64,000 bases of DNA from contig NZ_JAKVRD010000009.1 of NCBI RefSeq assembly GCF_022814865.1, positions 1 through 64,000 on the forward strand. The letters run 5' to 3'. The first letter of the stretch is position 1, and every line of letters starts with the position of its first letter. This stretch comes from Shimia aestuarii. Lineage in GTDB: Bacteria > Pseudomonadota > Alphaproteobacteria > Rhodobacterales > Rhodobacteraceae. The position numbers and the translations under genes are program-made. The notes beneath the pieces are model-generated. The model was not told where the DNA came from. It saw only the letters and a list, made by a program, of their open reading frames with translations, and made no database searches. Below are positions 10,472 through 31,572 of the stretch, one piece after another.

Positions 10472-10867
10472 CGCGCAGGGGGCTGGATGGCCGCGGGGGC
10501 CGCAAGGTTCGCGAGGAAAGTCCGGACTCCACAAGGCAACGGTGCCGGGTAATGCCCGGCCGGGGAAACCCGAGGGAAAGCGCCACAGAGAACAAACCGC
10601 CTCCGTTTGCGGGGGCAAGGGTGAAAAGGTGGGGTAAGAGCCCACCGCGCCGCTGGTAACAGGGGCGGCATGGCAAGCCCCACCGGGAGCAATGCCGAAT
10701 AGGGACCTCGCGCGGGATTGATCCTTCGGGATATCACCGCAGGGATGCTTTGGCCCAGAGGTCCGGGTTGGCAGCTAGAGGGGGCGCGGTAACGCGCTCT
10801 TTAGAAGAATGGTCATCCAGAGGGGGCAACCCCTTGGACAGAATCCGGCTTATAGGCTCCCTGCGCG
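10472..10867 (+). ncRNA. rnpB: RNase P RNA, bacterial type A
   Basis: The strand contains the universal GAGGAAAGTCCGGACTCC element near the 5' end, the GGTAACAGGGGCGGCA region, and ACAGAATCCGGCTTATAGG near the 3' end. These are the P4-forming and 3' conserved blocks of RNase P RNA. The ends are set by the P1 helix: CGCGCAGGG (10472-10480) pairs with CCCTGCGCG (10859-10867). The length of about 396 nt is normal for alphaproteobacteria. The 3' end is one base from the stop codon of the convergent ATP-grasp gene, with no clear T-tract. Confidence 0.95.
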
Positions 10868-10868
10868 T

Positions 10869-11957
10869 TTATTGCCCACCCGTCGCCAAGCGGGGATCGT
10901 CTGGCGCGTAGTGGCCAAAGCTGGTCTCTGTGGGCCAGCCAAGATCGGCGGCGATACGGCGGCCGTTCTCAAGACCGTCTGGCAGCTTCGAGAAATCATG
11001 CAGGTTCATGCGCAGGGCTTCCTTGGCGGGCGAGTCATAGTGAATGATCAGGGCGCCAGACGATATGGTGATTTCCCCAAGAAAGATGCGGTCGCCTTGG
11101 AACATGAAATCAACCCGGCAACTGGGAAGGTGCGCCGCGAGACGGCGCGTGGTTTCAAACATGGCGTCGCGATGCCTGTCCGGCAGGGCCTGTTCAAGGG
11201 AGGGGGTGTGGTCGCTGACCTTGCGTTCGATTGGTTTGAGGTCATCGTCCAGAACGCGGAAACCACCGAGGGTCGCGATCGGGTTCGACGCGCTATAGCC
11301 ATGCGTGGTGAGGATCATATAGGGCTCGCCGAAGGCGCAAAAAATGTCGGTTTCGGTGATCGTCTCCACTGGCAGCACCGCTTCTTCCACCACGAGGCGG
11401 CGGGGAATGTCGCGATAGTGCAGCTCTCCATGGCGGCGCCAATGTTCGATATGCCAATAGCGACGCAGGAAACGGCGATAGGCGAAGGGGGTGACGGGCA
11501 TGCCGGGACCGTGCAGGATATTCATCTTACAGCCGTCCGCGACCTTCAGCATCGCGGTCTGCGGAAGGTCGGAGAGATCAGCCGCCCAAGGATCGTCGTA
11601 GCCAACGATGAGCGCCGGGGGCTTGATCGGCGTATCGAGGTAGTCGCAAAGATGATGCATATCGACCTTGTCGGCGGCCAAGGGCATGAGCGGGTTTGGG
11701 TGGGTGAGGTAAAGCCCGCGCATCATTTCGCAATAGGCGGTGGGGTTGATGAAATCGGGAATGCGGCCCAAGGCTTGGGCCAAGGGAAAGGCCACGGCCT
11801 CGATATCGTTGCGGAAGGTGTTGTCGTAGATAAACGCCTGCCGCTCAGTGCGGGGCAGTGTGCGGGCGGCGCGTTCGGCGGCACGCGCGCGGGCTTCGAT
11901 CTCGGCGATGTAGTCGCGGCAGTCCGCGGTCATGTCAGGCGTCATAGTTTGGGTCAT
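10869..11957 (-). CDS. TupA-like ATP-grasp ligase, paralogue 1 (last of the array)
   Basis: A 362-residue single-domain protein. The shared family core is visible: [97 protein letters not shown], and the C-terminal tag TETSFGHYAPDDPRLATGG. This matches the TupA-type ATP-grasp family (amide-forming ligases tied to surface polymers). The Lys of MLKVADG and the DFM/GEIT acids are the likely ATP/Mg ligands. Its N-terminal third is nearly identical in DNA to paralogue 5. It starts 14 bases after the preceding paralogue and stops one base from rnpB. Substrate unknown. Confidence 0.82.
   Translation of the reverse strand: MTQTMTPDMTADCRDYIAEIEARARAAERAARTLPRTERQAFIYDNTFRNDIEAVAFPLAQALGRIPDFINPTAYCEMMRGLYLTHPNPLMPLAADKVDMHHLCDYLDTPIKPPALIVGYDDPWAADLSDLPQTAMLKVADGCKMNILHGPGMPVTPFAYRRFLRRYWHIEHWRRHGELHYRDIPRRLVVEEAVLPVETITETDIFCAFGEPYMILTTHGYSASNPIATLGGFRVLDDDLKPIERKVSDHTPSLEQALPDRHRDAMFETTRRLAAHLPSCRVDFMFQGDRIFLGEITISSGALIIHYDSPAKEALRMNLHDFSKLPDGLENGRRIAADLGWPTETSFGHYAPDDPRLATGGQ
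11621..11936 (-). repeat. Near-identical 316-base block, copy in ATP-grasp paralogue 1
   Basis: This segment, coding for the N-terminal third of paralogue 1, matches 16000-16315 in paralogue 5 with about four substitutions by eye. Similarity drops sharply on both sides. The rest of the two genes is only moderately similar, so the block was copied recently. Confidence 0.85.
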
Positions 11958-11971
11958 GCCAGAACTTTTCC

Positions 11972-13030
11972 TTATTGCCCACCCGTCGCCAGACGGGGAT
12001 CGTCGGGCGAGACATGGCCAAAGCTGGTCTCGGTCGGCCAGCCGAGTTTGGCGGCGATGCGGCGGCCTTGTGCGAGCGTGTCGGGCAGCAAGCCGAAATC
12101 GTAGAGTTCTGCGCGGCGGCGTTCGAGGCTGGGTGTCTTGTGCAGTTTGAAAAACCCCGAGGGCGATAGCGTCAGTTCGCTTAGGTAGCAGCGATCACCA
12201 ATCAGCATGAAGTCGATGCGGCAATGTGGCAGCGGGGCGGAAAGACGGCGAGCGGTTTCGAGCATTGCCTCGCGCCACGGCTCGGGGAGGACTTCGCAGA
12301 GGGGTGCGATGGGGCGGTCATAATCGCGTGCGAAGGGGAGTATCTCGTCCTGTAGTGGGGTGAAGCGGCGCTCGGGGAAGGAGCGCACGAGATAGGGTTT
12401 CCCAAAGGCGCAATGGATGCCGGGTTCGCGGATGGTGTTTGCGGGAAGAAGTGCCTCTTCGACGAGGATACGCTTGGGAATATCGCGGTAGTGCAGCTCT
12501 CCGTGGCGGCGCCAATGGTCAATATGCCATTGTTCGCGCAGGAAGCGGCGGTAGGCGAAGGGGGTCACGGGCATGCCGGGACCGTGCAGGATATTCATCT
12601 TGCAGCCATCGGAAACCTTGATCATTGCGGTTTGCGGCAGGTCCGAGAGGTCGAGGTCGTGCGGATCGTTATGCACGGCGACTAGGCGCGGGGGCTTGAT
12701 CGGGGTGTCCATGTAGTCGCAGTAGCGGCGCATCTCGATCTTGTCGGCCGCCAGCGACATCAGGGGGTTGGGATAGGTCAGATACAGGCTGCGCAGTTTC
12801 TCGCTATAGGTCGAGGGATTGCGGAAGTCCGGTATGCGGCCAAGGCCTTCGGCCAACGGATGTGCGACGGATTCGATGTCGTTCTGGAACGTCTGGTCGT
12901 AGATGAAGGCCTGTCGTTGCTGCCGTGGCAGGAACCGTGCCCGCCGACGCGCCTTGTTTGCGCGGGCTTTGATCCTTTCGAGAAAGAGCGCGCAATCCGG
13001 GGTCATTGTCGTGGCGGATGTGGTCATCAT
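11972..13030 (-). CDS. TupA-like ATP-grasp ligase, paralogue 2
   Basis: A 352-residue member of the same family: [99 protein letters not shown]-terminal TETSFGHVSPDDPRLATGG. One change stands out: SELTLS replaces the usual GEITLS. The start overlaps the stop of paralogue 3 by ATGA. The last 83 bases are almost the same as those of paralogue 3, which points to gene conversion. No signal peptide or membrane segment is visible, so it should be cytosolic. Confidence 0.82.
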   Translation of the reverse strand: MMTTSATTMTPDCALFLERIKARANKARRRARFLPRQQRQAFIYDQTFQNDIESVAHPLAEGLGRIPDFRNPSTYSEKLRSLYLTYPNPLMSLAADKIEMRRYCDYMDTPIKPPRLVAVHNDPHDLDLSDLPQTAMIKVSDGCKMNILHGPGMPVTPFAYRRFLREQWHIDHWRRHGELHYRDIPKRILVEEALLPANTIREPGIHCAFGKPYLVRSFPERRFTPLQDEILPFARDYDRPIAPLCEVLPEPWREAMLETARRLSAPLPHCRIDFMLIGDRCYLSELTLSPSGFFKLHKTPSLERRRAELYDFGLLPDTLAQGRRIAAKLGWPTETSFGHVSPDDPRLATGGQ

Positions 13031-14133
13031 GTTGCGTGTCGCTCCTCGTGCCCACCTGTCGCCAGACGGGGATCGTCGGGCGAGACATGGCCAAAGCTGG
13101 TCTCGGTCGGCCAGCCGAGTTTGGCAGCGATGGCACGCCCTTGGGCAAGGCAGTCGGGGAGCTTGGAGAGGTCGAAGAGATCGCTATCCATCTTCTGTTG
13201 CTCCGGTTCATGGAAGAAATCGCGCAGGGCGACGGGCGAAATGGTGATTTCGCCGAGGAAACAGCGCCCTTCCGAGAGCATAAAATCGACCCGGCAATGC
13301 GGTAAAGGCGCGGCGAGACGGCGCGTGGTCTCGAGCATGGCGTCTCGGAACGGGTCGGGGAAGGCGGTCTCGAATGGGGGCGGGCGCATGTCTTCGTAGC
13401 GTTCGAGCGGTTTGAGACTGTCTTCGAGGGCAAGGATGCCGTCCACCGCGCCATAGAACCGGTCGGCGGCGTAGCCCGATTTGGTAATCGCCATATAGGG
13501 CCGCCCAAACGCACAGAAAACGCCTGTCTCCGAGAGGCGCTCGATGGGCAGGAGCGCCTCTTCCACCATGAGGCGGCGGGGAATATCGCGGTAGTGTAGT
13601 TCGGCGTGACGGCGCCAGTGGTCGATATGCCAGAACTGGCGCAGAAAACGGCGGTAGGCAAAGCGAGTCACAGGCATGCCGGGGCCGTGCAGCAGGTTCA
13701 TCTTGCAGCCGTCGGAAATCTTGAGCATCGCGGTTTGTGGCAGCGATGAGAGGTCGAGATCCGCGGGGTCGTCATGCACGGCATGGATCTTGGGCGGGCG
13801 GATCGGCGTGTCGAAATGGGCGCAGTAGCGGGGCAGGAACACCTTGTCGGCGACCAGCGACATCAAGGGGTTGGGGTGCGTGAGGTAGAGGCTGCGGAGT
13901 TTTTCGGCATAGAGGAAGGGATCGCGGAAATCCGGCACCCGGTTGATCGCGGTTGCGAGGTGATAGGCGACGGCCTCAATCTCGTTGGTGAAGGTATGGT
14001 CATAGATGTAGGCCTGTCGCGCGGTGCGGGGCAGGGCGCGGGCCTCTTTCTCGGCGGTCCGTGCGCGGGTTTCGACCGCCTCAATCAGCGCGCGGCAGTC
14101 CGCTGTTGGCCTATCCGGGACGTAGGATTTCAC
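13027..14133 (-). CDS. TupA-like ATP-grasp ligase, paralogue 3
   Basis: About 368 residues. I start it at the GTG at 14131-14133, which overlaps the TGA of paralogue 4 (GTGA); the open frame continues upstream, but only as out-of-frame sequence of that neighbour. The core reads [98 protein letters not shown] and TETSFGHVSPDDPRLATGG. It has a slightly longer C-terminal tail (HEERHAT) than its siblings. Same predicted ATP-dependent ligase chemistry; substrate unknown. Confidence 0.82.
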   Translation of the reverse strand: MKSYVPDRPTADCRALIEAVETRARTAEKEARALPRTARQAYIYDHTFTNEIEAVAYHLATAINRVPDFRDPFLYAEKLRSLYLTHPNPLMSLVADKVFLPRYCAHFDTPIRPPKIHAVHDDPADLDLSSLPQTAMLKISDGCKMNLLHGPGMPVTRFAYRRFLRQFWHIDHWRRHAELHYRDIPRRLMVEEALLPIERLSETGVFCAFGRPYMAITKSGYAADRFYGAVDGILALEDSLKPLERYEDMRPPPFETAFPDPFRDAMLETTRRLAAPLPHCRVDFMLSEGRCFLGEITISPVALRDFFHEPEQQKMDSDLFDLSKLPDCLAQGRAIAAKLGWPTETSFGHVSPDDPRLATGGHEERHAT

Positions 14134-15233
14134 CCTGAGAGGGCCTCGTCTTGCCCAGCCGTTGCCAGACGCGGATCGTCGGGCGAGATATGGCCAAAGC
14201 TGGTCTCGGTCGGCCAACCAAGGTTGGCGGCAATGCGCTTGCCCTCTGCGAGGAGGTCGTCGAGGCGCGACATATCGAGGAGGTTGCCGCGGATGATCTC
14301 GACCTCGGGGTCATCGGGCAGGAGCATCAGTGCGCCGGGCGAGAGGGTGATTTCGCCCACGACTGTGCGGTTGCCGAGGCGCATGAAGTCGATACGGCAA
14401 TCGAGGAAGGGTTGGGAGAGGAGGCGCGACGTTTCGATGATGGCGTCGATTTGATCGGGTGGGCCGAGATCGTAAAGAGCGCGGGTTTCGCGAGCACCGC
14501 CCACAAGGCAATCGAGGCCGTCCTCGAGCGGAATATAGGCGCGGTCCTGAAGCCGTCCGTACCTATCGTGGGTCTTGGTGAAGAACATATAGGGCTTGCC
14601 CATGGCGCAATAGACGCCGCAATCGCGAAGCTCGTGGGACGGGAGCATGGCCTCTTCCAGAAGCAAGCGGCGGGGAATGTCGCGATAGTGCAATTCGCCG
14701 TGGCGGCGCCAATGGTCGTAGTGCCACAACTCCCAACGGAAATGACGCAGTGCGAATGGGGTGATCGGCATGCCGGGGCCTTGTTGCAGATGCATCTTGC
14801 AGCCGTCGTTCACCTTCAGAAAGCACGCCGGTGGCAGGGTCGCGAGATCGACCTCGCGGGGATCTTCGTAGGTGGCGAGGAGATCGAGCGGGGCAAGCGG
14901 CAGGTCGAACAGGTCGCAATAGGCGCGCAGGCCGATCTTATCGGCAACGAGGGGCATCAACGGGTTGGGGTGGGTCAGGTAGAGGCTGCGCAGTTTTTCG
15001 AGGTAGGTGCCGGGATTGGCGAAATCCGGGATACGCCCGAGCACGCGAGCGAGGGGGTAGGCGACGGCCTCGATGTCGTTGCGAAAACTCGCGTCATGGA
15101 TATAGGCCCCTCGTTTGACCCGCGGCAGCCACTGCGCCCTGCGCCGGGCGCGCCGCCTGCGTGTCTCGACGCCTTGGACAAAGGCGCGGCAGGCGTCGGT
15201 CATCTTGGTGGCGGGCGGTGGGCTTTTCGACAT
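14130..15233 (-). CDS. TupA-like ATP-grasp ligase, paralogue 4
   Basis: A 367-residue paralogue (MSKSPPPATKMTDACRAFVQ...). It keeps [79 protein letters not shown] and TETSFGHISPDDPRLATAG. It differs at the conserved loop: CFLKVNDGCKMHLQQGPGMP in place of AMLKI.DGCKMN.LHGPG, and the helix after it (RHFRWELWHYDHWRRHGELH) is altered. These changes may shift substrate choice. It starts 14 bases after paralogue 5 and overlaps paralogue 3 by 4 bases. Confidence 0.82.
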   Translation of the reverse strand: MSKSPPPATKMTDACRAFVQGVETRRRRARRRAQWLPRVKRGAYIHDASFRNDIEAVAYPLARVLGRIPDFANPGTYLEKLRSLYLTHPNPLMPLVADKIGLRAYCDLFDLPLAPLDLLATYEDPREVDLATLPPACFLKVNDGCKMHLQQGPGMPITPFALRHFRWELWHYDHWRRHGELHYRDIPRRLLLEEAMLPSHELRDCGVYCAMGKPYMFFTKTHDRYGRLQDRAYIPLEDGLDCLVGGARETRALYDLGPPDQIDAIIETSRLLSQPFLDCRIDFMRLGNRTVVGEITLSPGALMLLPDDPEVEIIRGNLLDMSRLDDLLAEGKRIAANLGWPTETSFGHISPDDPRLATAGQDEALSG

Positions 15234-15247
15234 GGTCTATCTTCGTC

Positions 15248-16336
15248 CTAGCGCCCGCCCGTGGCCAAGCGGGGATCGTCTGGCGCGTAGTGGCTAAAGC
15301 TCGTTTCCGTCGGCCATCCGAGGTCGGCGGCGATCTTGCGTCCCTGTTCCAGACAGTCCGGCAGTTTGGAGAAATCGAACAAGGACATGCGTAGATCCTC
15401 CTGAGCCTGGGTTTCATAGGGGCTGGCGAGGGCCGCAGAGGAGACGGTGATCTCGCCAAGGAAACAACGATCGTCAAGGATCATGAAATCGACCCTGTAA
15501 TTGGGTAAAGAATGACCGATAAGCCGCGCTGTTTCCAGCATATCTTTTTCAAAGCGGGCTGGCATCGCGTCGGTGTAGCGCGGCCGTCCAAGGTGTTTGT
15601 CGCGCTCAAGGAGTTGCAGGCGATCTTCCATCGCGCGGTAGCCGCCGATCGTGGCTTCGGGGCGATTTGGGGCATATCCGGCCTTGGTCAGGATCATATG
15701 TGGCTTGCCAAAAGCGCACATGAGACATGTCCCGGTGATGCGTTCAATAGGCAGGATGGCTTCTTCGATGACGAGGCGGCGGGGGATGTCGCGATAGTGC
15801 AATTCGCCGTGGCGGCGCCAATGTGCGAGGTGCCAGTTTTGACGCAGGAAACGGCGATAGGCGAAGGGGGTCACAGGCATGCCGGGACCGTGCAGAATAT
15901 TCATCTTACAGCCGTCCGCGACCTTCAGCATCGCGGTTTCCGGCAGGTCGGAGAGATCGAGGGACCAAGGATCGTCCGTTGCACCATAAAGCGCCGTGGG
16001 CTTGATTGGCGTATCGAGGTAGTCGCAAAGATGATGCATGTCGACCTTGTCGGCGGCCAAGGGCATGAGCGGGTTTGGATGGGTGAGGTAAAGCCCGCGC
16101 ATCATTTCGCAATAGGCGGTGGGGTTGATGAAATCGGGAATGCGGCCCAAGGCTTGGGCCAAGGGAAAGGCCACGGCCTCGATATCGTTGCGGAAGGTGT
16201 TGTCGTAGATGAACGCCTGCCGCTCAGTGCGGGGCAGTGTGCGGGCGGCGCGTTCGGCGGCACGCGCGCGGGCTTCGATCTCGGCGATGTAGTCGCGGCA
16301 GTCCGCGGTCATGTCGGTGGTGGTGCGTGAGGCCAT
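15248..16336 (-). CDS. TupA-like ATP-grasp ligase, paralogue 5
   Basis: A 362-residue paralogue. Residues from about DMTADC (position 8) to LDTPIKP (about 117) are identical to paralogue 1, and the matching DNA differs at only about four places in 316 bases. The rest has diverged: CLMCAFGKPHMILTKAGYAP, YRVDFMILDDRCFLGEITVS, TETSFSHYAPDDPRLATGG. Ser replaces Gly in SFSHYAP. This mosaic shows recent duplication or conversion of the N-terminal half only. It lies 4 bases after paralogue 6. Confidence 0.82.
   Translation of the reverse strand: MASRTTTDMTADCRDYIAEIEARARAAERAARTLPRTERQAFIYDNTFRNDIEAVAFPLAQALGRIPDFINPTAYCEMMRGLYLTHPNPLMPLAADKVDMHHLCDYLDTPIKPTALYGATDDPWSLDLSDLPETAMLKVADGCKMNILHGPGMPVTPFAYRRFLRQNWHLAHWRRHGELHYRDIPRRLVIEEAILPIERITGTCLMCAFGKPHMILTKAGYAPNRPEATIGGYRAMEDRLQLLERDKHLGRPRYTDAMPARFEKDMLETARLIGHSLPNYRVDFMILDDRCFLGEITVSSAALASPYETQAQEDLRMSLFDFSKLPDCLEQGRKIAADLGWPTETSFSHYAPDDPRLATGGR
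16000..16315 (-). repeat. Near-identical 316-base block, copy in ATP-grasp paralogue 5
   Basis: Partner of 11621-11936. Both copies are in the same orientation and about 4.4 kb apart, so recombination between them would delete or amplify four of the eight genes. Confidence 0.85.
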
Positions 16337-16340
16337 GGTC

Positions 16341-17423
16341 TTACTGCCCGCCCGTCAGGAGGCGCGGGTCGTCCGGGGCGATGTGTCCGAAGCTCGTATC
16401 GACCGGCCAGCCAAGGGAGTGGGCAATGGCGCGGCCTTTCTCGAGGAAGTCTGGCAGGCGGGTGAGGTCATAGAGGCTTCCGAGGAGGTTTTCCTGATCG
16501 AGGCTGTCGTAGGGTTTGGTGAACGCCGCAGAGGAGATGGTGATCTCGCCAAGGTAGCAGCGATCGTCGATGAACATGAAATCAATTCGACAGTTGGGCA
16601 GCGGTGCAGAGAGGCGGCGCGCGGTTTCGAGCATTGCCGCGCGGTGGCGCTCGGGCCAGGCGACCTCATAGGGGGGCGTGACGAAATCGGCATAGCGTTC
16701 GAGTGGTTTCAGGCGCTCTTCGAGGGCGATGTAGCCGCCGTTCCTACCGGCATGCACATCCGCGCTATAGCCGGTCTTGTTGAGAGACATGTAGGGCGTG
16801 CCAAAGGCGCAGAAGACACAGGTTTCGGTCAGGCTTTCGATCGGCAGCAGCGCCTCTTCGACGAGGAGGCGGCGCGGGATGTCGCGGTAATGCAGCTCGG
16901 CGTGGCGCCGCCAGTGATCGACATGCCAATAGCGGTTCAGAAAGCGGCGCAAGGCGAAGGGTGTGACCGGCATACCGGGGCCGTGCAGGATATTCATCTT
17001 GCAGCCATCGGAGATCTTCAGCATGGCCGTCTGCGGCAGGTCCGAGAGGTCAAGCTCTGACGGGTCGTCAAAGGCGGCATAGAGCTTGGGCGGGCGGATT
17101 GGCGCGTCCATGAGATCGCAGTAGCGGTGCATCTCGACCTTGTCGGCGACCAGCGACATCAGCGGATTGGGATGGATGAGGTAGAGGCTCCGCATCTTTT
17201 CGCAGTAGGTTGTCGGGGTGGCGAAGTTCGGCACCCGGCCTATCGCCAAGGCGAGTGGATAGGCGACGGCCTCGATCTCGTTCTGGAATGTCGCGTCGTA
17301 GAGGAAGGCTTGCCGTGCGGTGCGGGGCAGGGAGCGCGCCTGTTTCTCTGCCAGAGCCTTGCGCCGTGCCACACCGTCGACAAGGGCGTGGAACGCAGTG
17401 TCGGAGGGAAGGCAGGTGGTCAT
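16341..17423 (-). CDS. TupA-like ATP-grasp ligase, paralogue 6
   Basis: A 360-residue paralogue: [98 protein letters not shown], then VDTSFGHIAPDDPRLLTGG. All expected ATP-grasp residues are present. The C-terminal tag has VDTSFGH where most siblings have TETSFGH. It starts 2 bases after paralogue 7 and ends 4 bases before paralogue 5, so it is very likely part of one transcript. Confidence 0.82.
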   Translation of the reverse strand: MTTCLPSDTAFHALVDGVARRKALAEKQARSLPRTARQAFLYDATFQNEIEAVAYPLALAIGRVPNFATPTTYCEKMRSLYLIHPNPLMSLVADKVEMHRYCDLMDAPIRPPKLYAAFDDPSELDLSDLPQTAMLKISDGCKMNILHGPGMPVTPFALRRFLNRYWHVDHWRRHAELHYRDIPRRLLVEEALLPIESLTETCVFCAFGTPYMSLNKTGYSADVHAGRNGGYIALEERLKPLERYADFVTPPYEVAWPERHRAAMLETARRLSAPLPNCRIDFMFIDDRCYLGEITISSAAFTKPYDSLDQENLLGSLYDLTRLPDFLEKGRAIAHSLGWPVDTSFGHIAPDDPRLLTGGQ

Positions 17424-17425
17424 AT

Positions 17426-18478
17426 CTACTGTCCGCCGGTGGAAAGCCTTGGGTCGCCAGTGAAATGGCCAAAGCTGGTCTCGGTGGAGTAGCCAAGCTC
17501 CTGCGCAATCTTGCGACCGCGCTCGACGAACTCCGGCATGCGGGATGGGTCGAGCAGCGCTGTGCGCACGCGTTCATGTTCGGGCGTGTCGAGCATGTGG
17601 TAATATCCCCCCGGCGAGAGCGTGATCTCGCAGAGCGCAAGGCGATCACCGTTGCGCATGAAATCAATCCGGCAATGGTAGAAGTTCTGCGACAAGAGTC
17701 GTGCGGTCTGAATCATGGCGTCGACCTCAGCATCGGTGCCAAAGGCAGAACGGGGCGCGGAAAAGTATTTCCCGTTGAGCGTTTCAAGCGGCCTAAGGCC
17801 GTCCTTGAGCGCCGTGCGGTGGGTTTCGTCGAGAATGATATAGGGCTCGCCCATGACGCAGAAGATGCAAGGATCCTTGATCGTCTCAGCCGGTAGAAGC
17901 GCTTCTTCGACGAGGATGCGTTTGGGGATGTCGCGGTAGTGCAATTCAGCGTGGCGGCGCCAGTGGTCGACATGCCAGAACTGGCGCAGAAAGCGCCGAT
18001 AGGCAAAACGGGTCACAGGCATGCCGGGGCCGTGCAGCAGGTTCATCTTGCAGCCATCCGCGATCTTGATCATCGCGTTCTGAGGCAGGTCGTCCGGCAC
18101 CAGATCATCGGGATCATCAAACACCTCGAAGAGGCGGAGCGGGCGGATCGGAAGGTCGAACAAGTCGCAATACTCACGCATGGCGATTTTGTCGGCCGCG
18201 ATCGCCATGAGCGGGTTCGGATGGGTGAGGAACTGTGCGCGCAGGTGTTCGGAATAGGCGGTCGGGTTTGCGAAATCCGGGAGTCTGCCGAGGCTTTCGG
18301 CAAGGAAGAAGGCGACGGCTTCGATCTCGTTCTCAAAGCTTTGTTCGTAGATATAGCGGTGTTGATCCGCGCGGGGCATCCATTTGGCGCGCTTCTCTGC
18401 CTGTTGGCGGCGCGTGCCGATGCGCTCCAGAAATGCGCGGCATTCGGGTGTCATAGTTGGGGGATCCTGCGTCGTCAT
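17426..18478 (-). CDS. TupA-like ATP-grasp ligase, paralogue 7
   Basis: A 350-residue paralogue from a more divergent branch: [117 protein letters not shown]. Cys replaces Gly in CEITLS, and the C-terminal tag is one residue shorter (FTGDP versus the usual xxPDDP). It shares these traits with paralogue 8. Spacing is 12 bases from paralogue 8 and 2 bases to paralogue 6. Confidence 0.82.
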   Translation of the reverse strand: MTTQDPPTMTPECRAFLERIGTRRQQAEKRAKWMPRADQHRYIYEQSFENEIEAVAFFLAESLGRLPDFANPTAYSEHLRAQFLTHPNPLMAIAADKIAMREYCDLFDLPIRPLRLFEVFDDPDDLVPDDLPQNAMIKIADGCKMNLLHGPGMPVTRFAYRRFLRQFWHVDHWRRHAELHYRDIPKRILVEEALLPAETIKDPCIFCVMGEPYIILDETHRTALKDGLRPLETLNGKYFSAPRSAFGTDAEVDAMIQTARLLSQNFYHCRIDFMRNGDRLALCEITLSPGGYYHMLDTPEHERVRTALLDPSRMPEFVERGRKIAQELGYSTETSFGHFTGDPRLSTGGQ

Positions 18479-18490
18479 CTTCGGCCTTCT

Positions 18491-19531
18491 TTATTGCCCC
18501 GCGGTCGTCAAGCGCGGCTCTCCTGCGAAATGACCATAACTTGTATCGGCGGAAAGATTGAGAGCCTTGGCGATGGTGCGACCCTTTTCCACGTATTCAG
18601 GCAGGCGTGACATATCGAGGAGATCGCCGCGCATCCTTTCGAGGGCAAAAGGCTCGAGCCAATCATGGTGGCCGCGGGGCGAGAGGGTGATCTCTCCGAG
18701 GTAGAGGCGCCCGCCGACGCGCATGAAATCGACGCGGCAATGGAACAGCGCGGCGGAGAGCTTGCGAGCGGTGTCGAGCATGCGCTCGAGTTCCTCGGGG
18801 CTTGCGAGATCGCTAAGCGGGGTCGAGACACGGCCGTTCTGTCGTTCGAGTGGAGCGAGCTCGGGGCGTAGGGCGGCCATGCGCGAGGGTGGGGCGAAGA
18901 TCATGTAGGGCGTGCCCGTCACACAATAGACGCCAAGCTGGGGGATGTCCTCGGCTGGCAAAAGGGCTTCTTCGACGAGGAGACGCTTGGGGATGTCGCG
19001 GTAATGCAGCTCTGCGTGGCGGCGCCAATGGTCGATATGCCAGAACGTTCTCAGAAATCGGCGGTAGCGGCGGCGGGTGACCGGGGTCTTGGGGCTATGC
19101 AGCAGGTTCATGGCACAGCCGTCGGAGATCTTGATCATCGCCGCCTCGGGCAAGTCACGGGGATCGAGCGTATGCGGGGAATCATGCACCGCAAGCAGCC
19201 TTGGGGGCTGGATGGGCAGGTCGAACAGGGCGCAGTAGTCGCGCATGGCGACCTTGTCGGCCGCGATGGCCATGAGCGGGTTGGGGTGCGTAAGGAATTG
19301 GCCGCGCAGCTTTTCGGTGTAGGTCTTGGGGGTGGCGAAGTCGGGAATCTCGCCGGTCTTTTCGGCCAGAAAGAAGGCCACGGCCTCGATATCGTTGTGG
19401 AAGGTCTGGTCATAGATGAACCGATCGCGTTCAGCGCGGGGGCGCAAGGCGGCGCGCAGATGAGCCCGCAGCGCCCGACGACGCACGTCAGAGAGGACTT
19501 TCGCGCAGGCTGGGGTCATATCGGTCGGCAT
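18491..19531 (-). CDS. TupA-like ATP-grasp ligase, paralogue 8 (first of the array)
   Basis: About 346 residues from the ATG at 19531, which has GAAGGGG a few bases upstream; an earlier in-frame ATG at 19615 would add 28 residues with no counterpart in the siblings. The core is conserved ([79 protein letters not shown]). The loop is altered: [17 protein letters not shown] instead of DGCKMN.LHGPGMPVT. The usual Lys is Ala and the GPGM turn is lost, so activity or substrate may differ. As first gene it should carry the promoter, in the 208-base gap shared with rpmG. Confidence 0.8.
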
Positions 19532-27291: not shown

Positions 27292-27366
27292 TGGAGCGGG
27301 CGATGAGATTCGAACTCACGACCCTAACCTTGGCAAGGTTATGCTCTACCCCTGAGCTACGCCCGC
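27292..27366 (-). tRNA. tRNA-Gly (GCC), copy 1
   Basis: The minus strand folds as a standard cloverleaf: acceptor GCGGGC.., D-arm AGCTCAGGGGTAGAGC, anticodon arm AACCTTGCCAAGGTT with anticodon GCC, T-arm GTGAGTTCGAATCTCAT, encoded CCA. Confidence 0.97.
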
Positions 27367-27388
27367 ACCGGAAAGGTTATGTCTTCAA

Positions 27389-27463
27389 TGGAGCGGGCGA
27401 TGAGATTCGAACTCACGACCCTAACCTTGGCAAGGTTATGCTCTACCCCTGAGCTACGCCCGC
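27389..27463 (-). tRNA. tRNA-Gly (GCC), copy 2
   Basis: Identical in sequence to the copy at 27292-27366 and separated from it by 22 bases, so the two are probably cut from one transcript. Confidence 0.97.
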
Positions 27464-29946: not shown

Positions 29947-31572
29947 ATGCCTGAATTTGCGATTTCAAATGTGTATCGGTACGACGGCAGTCTTGCCTCT
30001 CTCAACCTCGGGTCTTTGCTCGATACCAATCTGTTGAATCTTGGGAGCGAGCAGAGCGGCGTATTCAATGATGACGACGGTCAACTTGATCTCGGCGATA
30101 GCGGGACGACCACGTTCTCTTTCGATGGCTCGGGCACGGCAAGCCCGATCACCTATCTTGGCTCGGGAGAGATTTACACGCTTGGCATTTTGGGGCTTCG
30201 CGTGGACCCGAGGCCGGTCATTGCCTTTCAAGTCGATGACGAGATTTATTTCTATGCAGAAGACGGTCTTCCGATCCTGAGCGCTGTATCGTTCGGGATT
30301 GACGTGGATGTGCTTGAGCCGGGTGTCCTTCCGCCCGACAGCCAGTTGCCAGATGGAAAGGTCGATGGGCTTGAGACCGGGGAAGTCATGGATGTCGGTT
30401 ATGCCGACGAACAAGGCGATCTGATCACCGACGGCGACGATACGATTTATGGCAATGGTGGCGCCGATGTGATCATCGCAGGCGACGGGGATGATGTTGT
30501 CCATGGTGGCGACGGGGGCGACCTCATCTTTGGCGGTGACGGCGACGACACGCTTTATGCCGATTCCGGTGTCGATGCGCTTTATGGTGGCGCGGGTGCG
30601 GATGTGTTCGTGGTCGAGGGCGAAGGCGAGCTCATTGCGGATTTCGACACCAGCACGGGCGTCGGGGACGGCGATAGTTCCAACAATGATTTCGTTGACC
30701 TCTCGGAATTCTATAATCAAACCTCTCTGGATGCCTGGAACGCGGCCAATCCGGGGCAGACCTATGATCACCCTTTGGAATGGTTGCGGGCGGACCTTGC
30801 CGACAATGGTATTCTCGAACAGGCCGGTGGTGTGCGGATCGAGGATGGTGGTATTTCGGTCAACCCGGCGCTTCTTGATATTGAGAACACCAACGTCGTT
30901 TGTTTCGCAGAAGGGACGATGATCGAGACGGATCAGGGGTTGCGACCGGTTGAACAGCTCGGGGTTGGGGATAGGGTTCTGACTTTGGACAACGGCTTTC
31001 AGGAGGTGCGTTGGATCAACATGCGCGCGCTGTCGCCGCTTGATCTTGTGTTGCGACCGAACCTCAAGCCGATCCATATTCCAGCAGGGGCGCTTGGCGA
31101 GGGGATGCCAACCGAGATGCTTGTGGTCTCGCCACAACATCGCATTCACGTGCACTCTCCGATCCTCATGCGGATGATCGAAAGCAAAGAGGCGTTGGTG
31201 CATGCGAAGTCTCTGGTCGGGGTCAATGGAATCTCGGAGATGCAGGACATGATGGGGGTGCGCTATTGGCATTTCATGTGCGCCCGCCACGAGATCGTGC
31301 ACGCCAATGGTGCCTTGGCCGAGAGTTTCTATGTCGGTGCCTACGGTGTCAGCACGCTGGACGCCGAGGCCTATGAGGAGATCGTGACGCTTTTTCCGGA
31401 ATTGCGGCTTGGAGCCGAGGAGGTGCCACCAGTCATGCGTGCGGCGCGCCCGTTCCTCAAGCCCCGCACTGCGCGCAGTTTCGTGCGCCGCTCTTTGAAA
31501 AACGACAAGCCTTTGTCTGTGCCAGCCGAGAAGGCAGAGCGAGGAAGCGTTTGCAGAGAATCCACCCGCTGA
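29947..31572 (+). CDS. RTX/Hint-domain protein, probably secreted by a type I system
   Basis: A 541-residue acidic protein. There is no Sec signal. Residues 1-130 are beta-rich and unassigned. Residues 155-215 hold four to five RTX calcium-binding nonapeptides (GNGGADVIIAGDGDD, GGDGGDLIFGGDGDD). A Hint domain follows from CFAEGTMIETDQGLRPVEQL, with a histidine in SPQHRIHVHS and HEIVHANG later on. This layout is common in roseobacters, where Hint domains cap adhesins or cleave themselves. Export by an ABC-type I secretion system is expected, but none is encoded here. The last 60 residues are basic, which is unusual for RTX proteins. Confidence 0.85.
   Translation: MPEFAISNVYRYDGSLASLNLGSLLDTNLLNLGSEQSGVFNDDDGQLDLGDSGTTTFSFDGSGTASPITYLGSGEIYTLGILGLRVDPRPVIAFQVDDEIYFYAEDGLPILSAVSFGIDVDVLEPGVLPPDSQLPDGKVDGLETGEVMDVGYADEQGDLITDGDDTIYGNGGADVIIAGDGDDVVHGGDGGDLIFGGDGDDTLYADSGVDALYGGAGADVFVVEGEGELIADFDTSTGVGDGDSSNNDFVDLSEFYNQTSLDAWNAANPGQTYDHPLEWLRADLADNGILEQAGGVRIEDGGISVNPALLDIENTNVVCFAEGTMIETDQGLRPVEQLGVGDRVLTLDNGFQEVRWINMRALSPLDLVLRPNLKPIHIPAGALGEGMPTEMLVVSPQHRIHVHSPILMRMIESKEALVHAKSLVGVNGISEMQDMMGVRYWHFMCARHEIVHANGALAESFYVGAYGVSTLDAEAYEEIVTLFPELRLGAEEVPPVMRAARPFLKPRTARSFVRRSLKNDKPLSVPAEKAERGSVCRESTR

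Follow-up and report, generated by a model that had tools for sequence, protein, structure and literature searches.

A tandem array of eight TupA-like ATP-grasp amidoligase genes between rnpB and rpmG in Shimia aestuarii

Introduction

A 64,000-nucleotide stretch of the Shimia aestuarii genome (contig NZ_JAKVRD010000009.1, hereafter the window) carries eight uninterrupted, head-to-tail open reading frames (ORFs) at positions 10869-19531 of the minus strand. Named T1 to T8 in transcription order, they are best explained as a single operon-like array that encodes complete TupA-branch ATP-grasp amidoligases. The enzymes are of a known kind, and the array is real and unusual. The reading preferred here, which as a whole falls just short of probable, is a diversified set of amidoligases that would work in parallel on different substrates and, by analogy with Cj1438C of Campylobacter jejuni, would decorate the carboxyl groups of an exported glycan.

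The array and its genes

The ORFs confirm what an earlier note, made from the letters of the window, had described: eight paralogues of 346-368 residues on one strand, head to tail, with gaps of -4 to +14 bases. From T1 to T8 the gaps are +12, +2, +4, +14, -4, -4 and +14 bases. T8 is 49-75% identical to the other copies and 93 alignment columns are invariant across the array, so the likeness is far above chance. Searches of the 3.97-Mb genome with T7 (E 0.001) and with the PF14305 profile (E 0.01) matched these eight copies and nothing else. The genes and their two borders, with scores against PF14305 (curated cut-off 25 bits), are as follows.

18491..19531, minus strand: T1, TupA-like ATP-grasp protein, 346 residues, first gene; ORF from ATG; 28.6 bits
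17426..18478, minus strand: T2, TupA-like ATP-grasp protein, 350 residues; 44.2 bits
16341..17423, minus strand: T3, TupA-like ATP-grasp protein, 360 residues; 22.9 bits, under the cut-off
15248..16336, minus strand: T4, TupA-like ATP-grasp protein, 362 residues, nearest relative T8; 17.2 bits, under the cut-off
14130..15233, minus strand: T5, TupA-like ATP-grasp protein, 367 residues, the type nearest the single Shimia copy; 26.8 bits
13027..14133, minus strand: T6, TupA-like ATP-grasp protein, 368 residues from GTG 14133; 19.0 bits, under the cut-off
11972..13030, minus strand: T7, TupA-like ATP-grasp protein, 352 residues; 35.1 bits
10869..11957, minus strand: T8, TupA-like ATP-grasp protein, 362 residues, last gene; 20.5 bits, under the cut-off
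10475..10868, plus strand: rnpB, RNase P RNA class A, convergent left border; RF00010, 295.3 bits
19740..19907, plus strand: 55-residue ORF which we take to be rpmG (ribosomal protein L33), divergent right border

The T6 start was placed at GTG 14133 from the start of the near-identical P0003 of another assembly (relatives are numbered with P, genomes with G and loci with L). At 13027-13060, T6 ends in GGHEERHAT and overlaps T7 by 4 bases, P0003 ends in GGQ, and by sequence the T6/T7 border is a strain difference.

Fold and active site

All eight copies match PF14305 (ATPgrasp_TupA; ATP-grasp fold amidoligase family protein at NCBI). The profile search of each protein that the earlier note had called for lifted T1, T2, T5 and T7 over the curated cut-off and left the other four under it; T8, below the line, is 61% identical to T7 above it. 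AlphaFold models of two copies, with mean predicted local distance difference test (pLDDT) scores of 96.1 and 95.5, both matched ATP-grasp enzymes, with D-Ala-D-Ala ligases on top and LysX/ArgX and RimK-type ligases further down; identity of the models to these ligases is low, 7-16% over all listed rows. By predicted structure, the copies have the ATP-grasp fold.

Each of the 19 key positions checked is identical in all eight copies. Among the conserved residues, K97, K138, Y181 and E191 are invariant across 70 aligned relatives, E178, R270, D272, E284 and T286 are nearly so, and all nine are identical in 8/8 copies. Profile, models and residues together uphold the assignment to TupA-like ATP-grasp enzymes with a kept active site, and neither of the contrary signs named in advance, a missing ATP-grasp fold or a loss of ATP ligands in most copies, was found. 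The motifs said to run through all copies hold with exceptions. MxK..DGC.MN is kept except in T5 (FLKVNDGCKMH), CR(I/V)DFM...EIT(L/I)S except in T4 (YRVDFM, EITVS) and T7 (ELTLS), and the tail PRL.TGG except in T1 and T5, which have TAG in place of TGG. Compared with PF14305 at large, the array branch is narrow and is set apart by the DGC.M loop, the DPRL.T(G/A)G tail and the tandem octet.

The copies are very probably working amidoligases, with fold and conserved residues predicted from models and alignments and a reaction that would be that of the family. In each case ATP would serve to activate a carboxylate as an acyl phosphate, which an amine would then capture to give an amide. Searches by sequence gave no convincing PDB match (T7 none; query A3 one chance match at E 0.078). 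Matches of single copies to LGT and Imm5-like families lay under the cut-off and were put aside as chance, and NCBIfam returned only sub-threshold lgt matches, for T4 and T8; a family absent from the VIA lists is not thereby excluded.

Paralogue types and their age

The history of the copies was followed in a tree of 48 rows, which excluded P ids that duplicate copies of the window or of a locus, proteins shorter than 300 residues, ids above P0046 and two L010 pieces. T1, T2, T3, T5 and T6 each fell together, with support, with a protein of another genome or metagenome: T1 with P0030 (77% identity, support 100/99), T3 with P0006 (86%), and T5 with P0016 (100/100) and with the L011 group (95/94). 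T4 and T8 were each other's closest relatives. The entropy, segment and loop-free analyses used 37 of the 48 rows, with the outgroup, the distant singles, P0038 and P0039 dropped. Without the variable columns, the groupings of T1, T2, T5, T6 and T4/T8 were kept, as was that of T3 with P0006, while the wider T3 group was not resolved; T7 joined P0023/P0024 with modest support (87/80).

Several paralogue types are older than the species split, because they group with counterparts elsewhere; most of the duplications predate the species, with T4/T8 as a local pair. Eight orthologue pairs gave nonsynonymous divergence (dN) of 0.23-0.29 and synonymous divergence (dS) of 1.0-1.5, a ratio that fits purifying selection, with dS near saturation.

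This bears on plain tandem amplification for dosage, in which the copies would differ little in function. The tight head-to-tail arrangement and the near-identical stretch of T4 and T8 described below speak for it; set against these, the other copies are only 49-75% identical to T8, most types predate the species split and, as shown next, their variable segments are type-specific. Dosage is very improbable.

Variable segments and specificity

In the entropy profile of the array family, two segments, 211-250 and 291-300 (T2 numbering), stand out among the most variable ones. The former makes up two strands in the T8 model and the latter lies directly behind the EIT.S motif. Identity in segment 211-250 is 58% within types vs 24% between them, in segment 291-300 51% vs 19%, and in the remaining sequence 73% vs 59%. 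The within/between ratio of segment 211-250 was reached by none of 80 other windows and that of segment 291-300 by 7 of 137, the windows being mutually overlapping and the type groups adjusted to the loop-free tree. The pattern is support and not proof, because the segments were picked post hoc and the type groups were themselves derived from trees of these proteins.

In the ligase Ddl, the substrate is contacted by the stretch that follows the equivalent motif. Each copy probably handles a different amine or acceptor, because most are old, separately kept types with differing variable segments, and we consider it likely that the specificities differ. That each enzyme might serve a separate unit, as the earlier note had it, gains from these segments as far as differing specificity goes. 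Eight intact paralogues with one shared engine, type-specific segments and outside relatives would also form a panel for studying donor and acceptor choice.

Occurrence and copy number

Among 25 genus genomes, the own one included, strong relatives occur in four, only weak matches in another four and neither in 17. The strong carriers are the own genome with eight copies, Pseudopelagicola N1D-Bin_9 (G006) with four, G021 with at least four and an uncultured Shimia (G005) with one; in all four, the ligase genes lie between rnpB and rpmG. The count for G021 (L010), three whole genes and at least one at a 100-N gap, is a lower bound because the two gap-edge pieces share 55 identical bases and may be one gene. 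G390, of another genus, has a single array-type gene between the same two neighbours.

In a family sample of 394 genomes, in which the five best candidates per genome were scored, 11 matched at 1e-20 and five of them, the own included, at 1e-60 or better. One more distant copy each was found in G164, G268, Phaeovulum (G402) and Tabrizicola, with electron transfer flavoprotein genes within about 5 kb in 4/4 and a topoisomerase IV/gyrase A gene within about 5 kb in 3/4 (G164, G268, Tabrizicola). The picture that the earlier note had set against itself, of orthologues standing singly beside unrelated genes, holds in part, for these distant relatives. A search with the array alignment gave 48 proteins at E 1e-5, those of the window included, among 7995 scored candidates.

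In a phylum sample of 398 genomes, the own included, PF14305 matched at 0.001 in 37; the 36 positives among the 397 others hold 1 to 5 matches, no two listed matches lie less than about 11 kb apart, and no tandem array was found with this profile, under whose cut-off half of the own copies fall. TupA-like genes are widespread; within reach of the PF14305 profile, this lineage was the only one seen to carry them in tandem. A literature search of mainly freely accessible papers found no report of a tandem TupA array, which is no proof of absence.

These counts weigh on the step-by-step ligation line that the earlier note had proposed, in which a single acceptor is extended by one unit per ligase, in turn, into a defined oligoamide. 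The tight array of eight diverged and intact genes, the type-specific segments and the order of a T1-type before a T2-type gene in L010 too would suit such a line. Against it, the copy numbers at the same junction are 8, 4, at least 4, 1 and 1 with types that differ between genomes, the order in L009 is another (T2-, T8-, T6- and T3-like by best hit), and no carrier, release or transport gene lies inside the array. An ordered eight-step line is not supported, because copy number varies from 1 to 8 and singles exist; no observation points to an order or to an acceptor in common. The proposal is quite unlikely, and a parallel set with different substrates, decorating without a fixed eight-step order, fits better.

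Other origins were tried and rejected. T2 and T7, the two of eight copies scanned, gave no PHROGs or PADLOC match that would point to phage or defence; no relative was confirmed among 24 IMG/VR pattern matches; and T2 as query gave two remote plasmid matches of about 26% identity. Recent import was set aside on the GC content of the array (61.8% vs 61.4% for the window) and on the single relatives in other genera.

A variable junction and probable recombination

Within the inspected stretch, rpmG follows rnpB in 7 of the 25 genus genomes, the own window included, and the rpmG protein is 100% identical beside the arrays of L009, L010 and L011. The junction is a variable site. In the three of these seven genomes that lack the ligase genes there, the content differs: in G009 it holds a gene with an RsgA GTPase domain (L049 1586-2797), in G013 a stretch with a sulfatase gene (L055 2335-3972), and in G001 it is empty, at 187 bp (L053 1506-1693).

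Sequence exchange is seen within the array as well. In windows over about nucleotides 50-300, the identity of T4 and T8 is 98-100%, against 44-60% in windows from nucleotides 600-750, and by this sequence pattern the high-identity stretch is a gene-conversion tract. Among the 28 pairs, T4/T8 alone reaches 95% or more in a 100-nucleotide window; T2/T6 comes up to 93% in one such window. The set would grow, shrink and exchange parts via recombination at the junction.

Such exchange might be the purpose of the array, with partly redundant copies kept as a recombination store whose conversion, gain and loss shift surface amidation, for example against phages or grazers. The T4/T8 tract, the T2/T6 window, the varying copy number and a junction that elsewhere holds other inserts or nothing are what this would predict. 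The windows of 95% or more in only 1/28 pairs, the types that mostly remain separate across genomes and the intact ORFs of all eight copies argue the other way, and the store is improbable. An extension of the parallel set, somewhat unlikely in itself, would take up the same observations: an expandable set of up to eight specificities may write a combinatorial amide pattern on the carboxyls of one surface polymer, with copy gain, loss and conversion at the junction rewriting the pattern between lineages.

Candidate substrates

TupA, the name-giving member, takes part in teichuronopeptide synthesis in alkaliphilic Bacillus; the product is a Gram-positive wall polymer of glucuronic and glutamic acids, and TupA can be likened to the array by family name and description only. 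Reactions are known for few TupA-like amidoligases, and the literature search found one. According to two reports, the TupA-like ATP-grasp domain of Cj1438C in C. jejuni HS:2, which is its likeness to the array, forms an amide between the C6 carboxylate of glucuronate already built into the capsule and either serinol phosphate or ethanolamine phosphate (PMC11800379, PMC11800397). As described there, the domain is the C-terminal part of a protein with a glycosyltransferase domain and is encoded within the capsule cluster, unlike the array, to which it is likened by family and not by sequence.

Besides PF05159 capsule genes, the own genome contains a locus that combines UDP-glucose dehydrogenase, GT2 and ATP-binding cassette (ABC) export genes; G006 and G021 share all or part of this locus. 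Genes for an exported, carboxyl-bearing glycan are present, and genomes without the array have such genes too. We place a surface glycan first among the candidate targets, tentatively and with slightly less than even confidence. The likeliest targets would be carboxyls of uronic acid or 3-deoxy-D-manno-octulosonic acid (Kdo) residues of a kps-like capsule. If the capsule is decorated, its amide modification would be unusually rich and would be likely to affect contact with phages and grazers.

Several observations weigh against a parallel set that decorates a glycan. The neighbourhood of the array yielded no glycan gene. A scan of 25 further window ORFs gave a Pfam family for 18 and none for 7, no glycosyltransferase or sugar-nucleotide enzyme is among the 18, and the array is not encoded with a glycan's own biosynthesis genes; these flanking lists are greedy longest-ORF picks made without a gene finder, so some may not be genes. 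PF05159 does not track the array, because it is present in all 25 genus genomes, and it was dropped as a partner, being in 4/4 other carriers too. Strong-class UDP-glucose dehydrogenase (at least 229 bits, a cut-off chosen after the list was seen) occurs in 4/4 array genomes but also in 10/21 others, and PF03721 was likewise rejected as not specific. G390, with one array-type gene, has PF05159 and no PF03721 at 1e-25; Kdo carboxyls would fit this genome better than glucuronate. As to the copies themselves, T3, T4, T6 and T8 score under the PF14305 cut-off, the placement of T7 lacks resolution in the 48-row tree, a ninth orthologue pair, T5/L011, is far more diverged (dN 0.43, dS 2.85), and the T4/T8 tract shows that copies swap sequence. 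Both variable segments were chosen after the entropy profile was seen, and that they face the substrate is inference only, by analogy.

Part of this would suit small soluble substrates, such as a peptide-like or other amide-linked metabolite, in place of a surface glycan. The structural matches include D-Ala-D-Ala, LysX/ArgX and RimK-type ligases, array-type single copies were not seen in glycan clusters, and G390 lacks PF03721. These folds are, however, generic for ATP-grasp enzymes, no biosynthetic partner genes stood out near the array, and the one TupA-like enzyme found with published activity acts on capsule (PMC11800397). Soluble substrates are unlikely.

A second, remote PF14305 gene of G005 (L114 13351-14307; 54.7 bits), 19-24% identical to the array copies, is clustered with a UDP-glucose dehydrogenase gene and two further sugar-nucleotide genes.

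Neighbouring features

The T8 stop codon directly adjoins the convergent 3' end of rnpB (10860-10875), and in L009, L010 and L011 the final array gene likewise stops within about 15 bp of rnpB; the rnpB terminator may therefore sit within a ligase gene. A few kb from the single ligase gene of the uncultured Shimia, L011 16813-20682 holds four tandem ORFs of 322-327 residues with similar starts, apparently another paralogue array. Elsewhere in the window, an adjacent pair of transfer RNA genes with equal scores lies at 27295-27463 (minus strand) and is paired in L009 and L011 too, and an ORF at 29947-31572 (plus strand) combines a Hint domain of the self-splicing type with RTX calcium-binding repeats.
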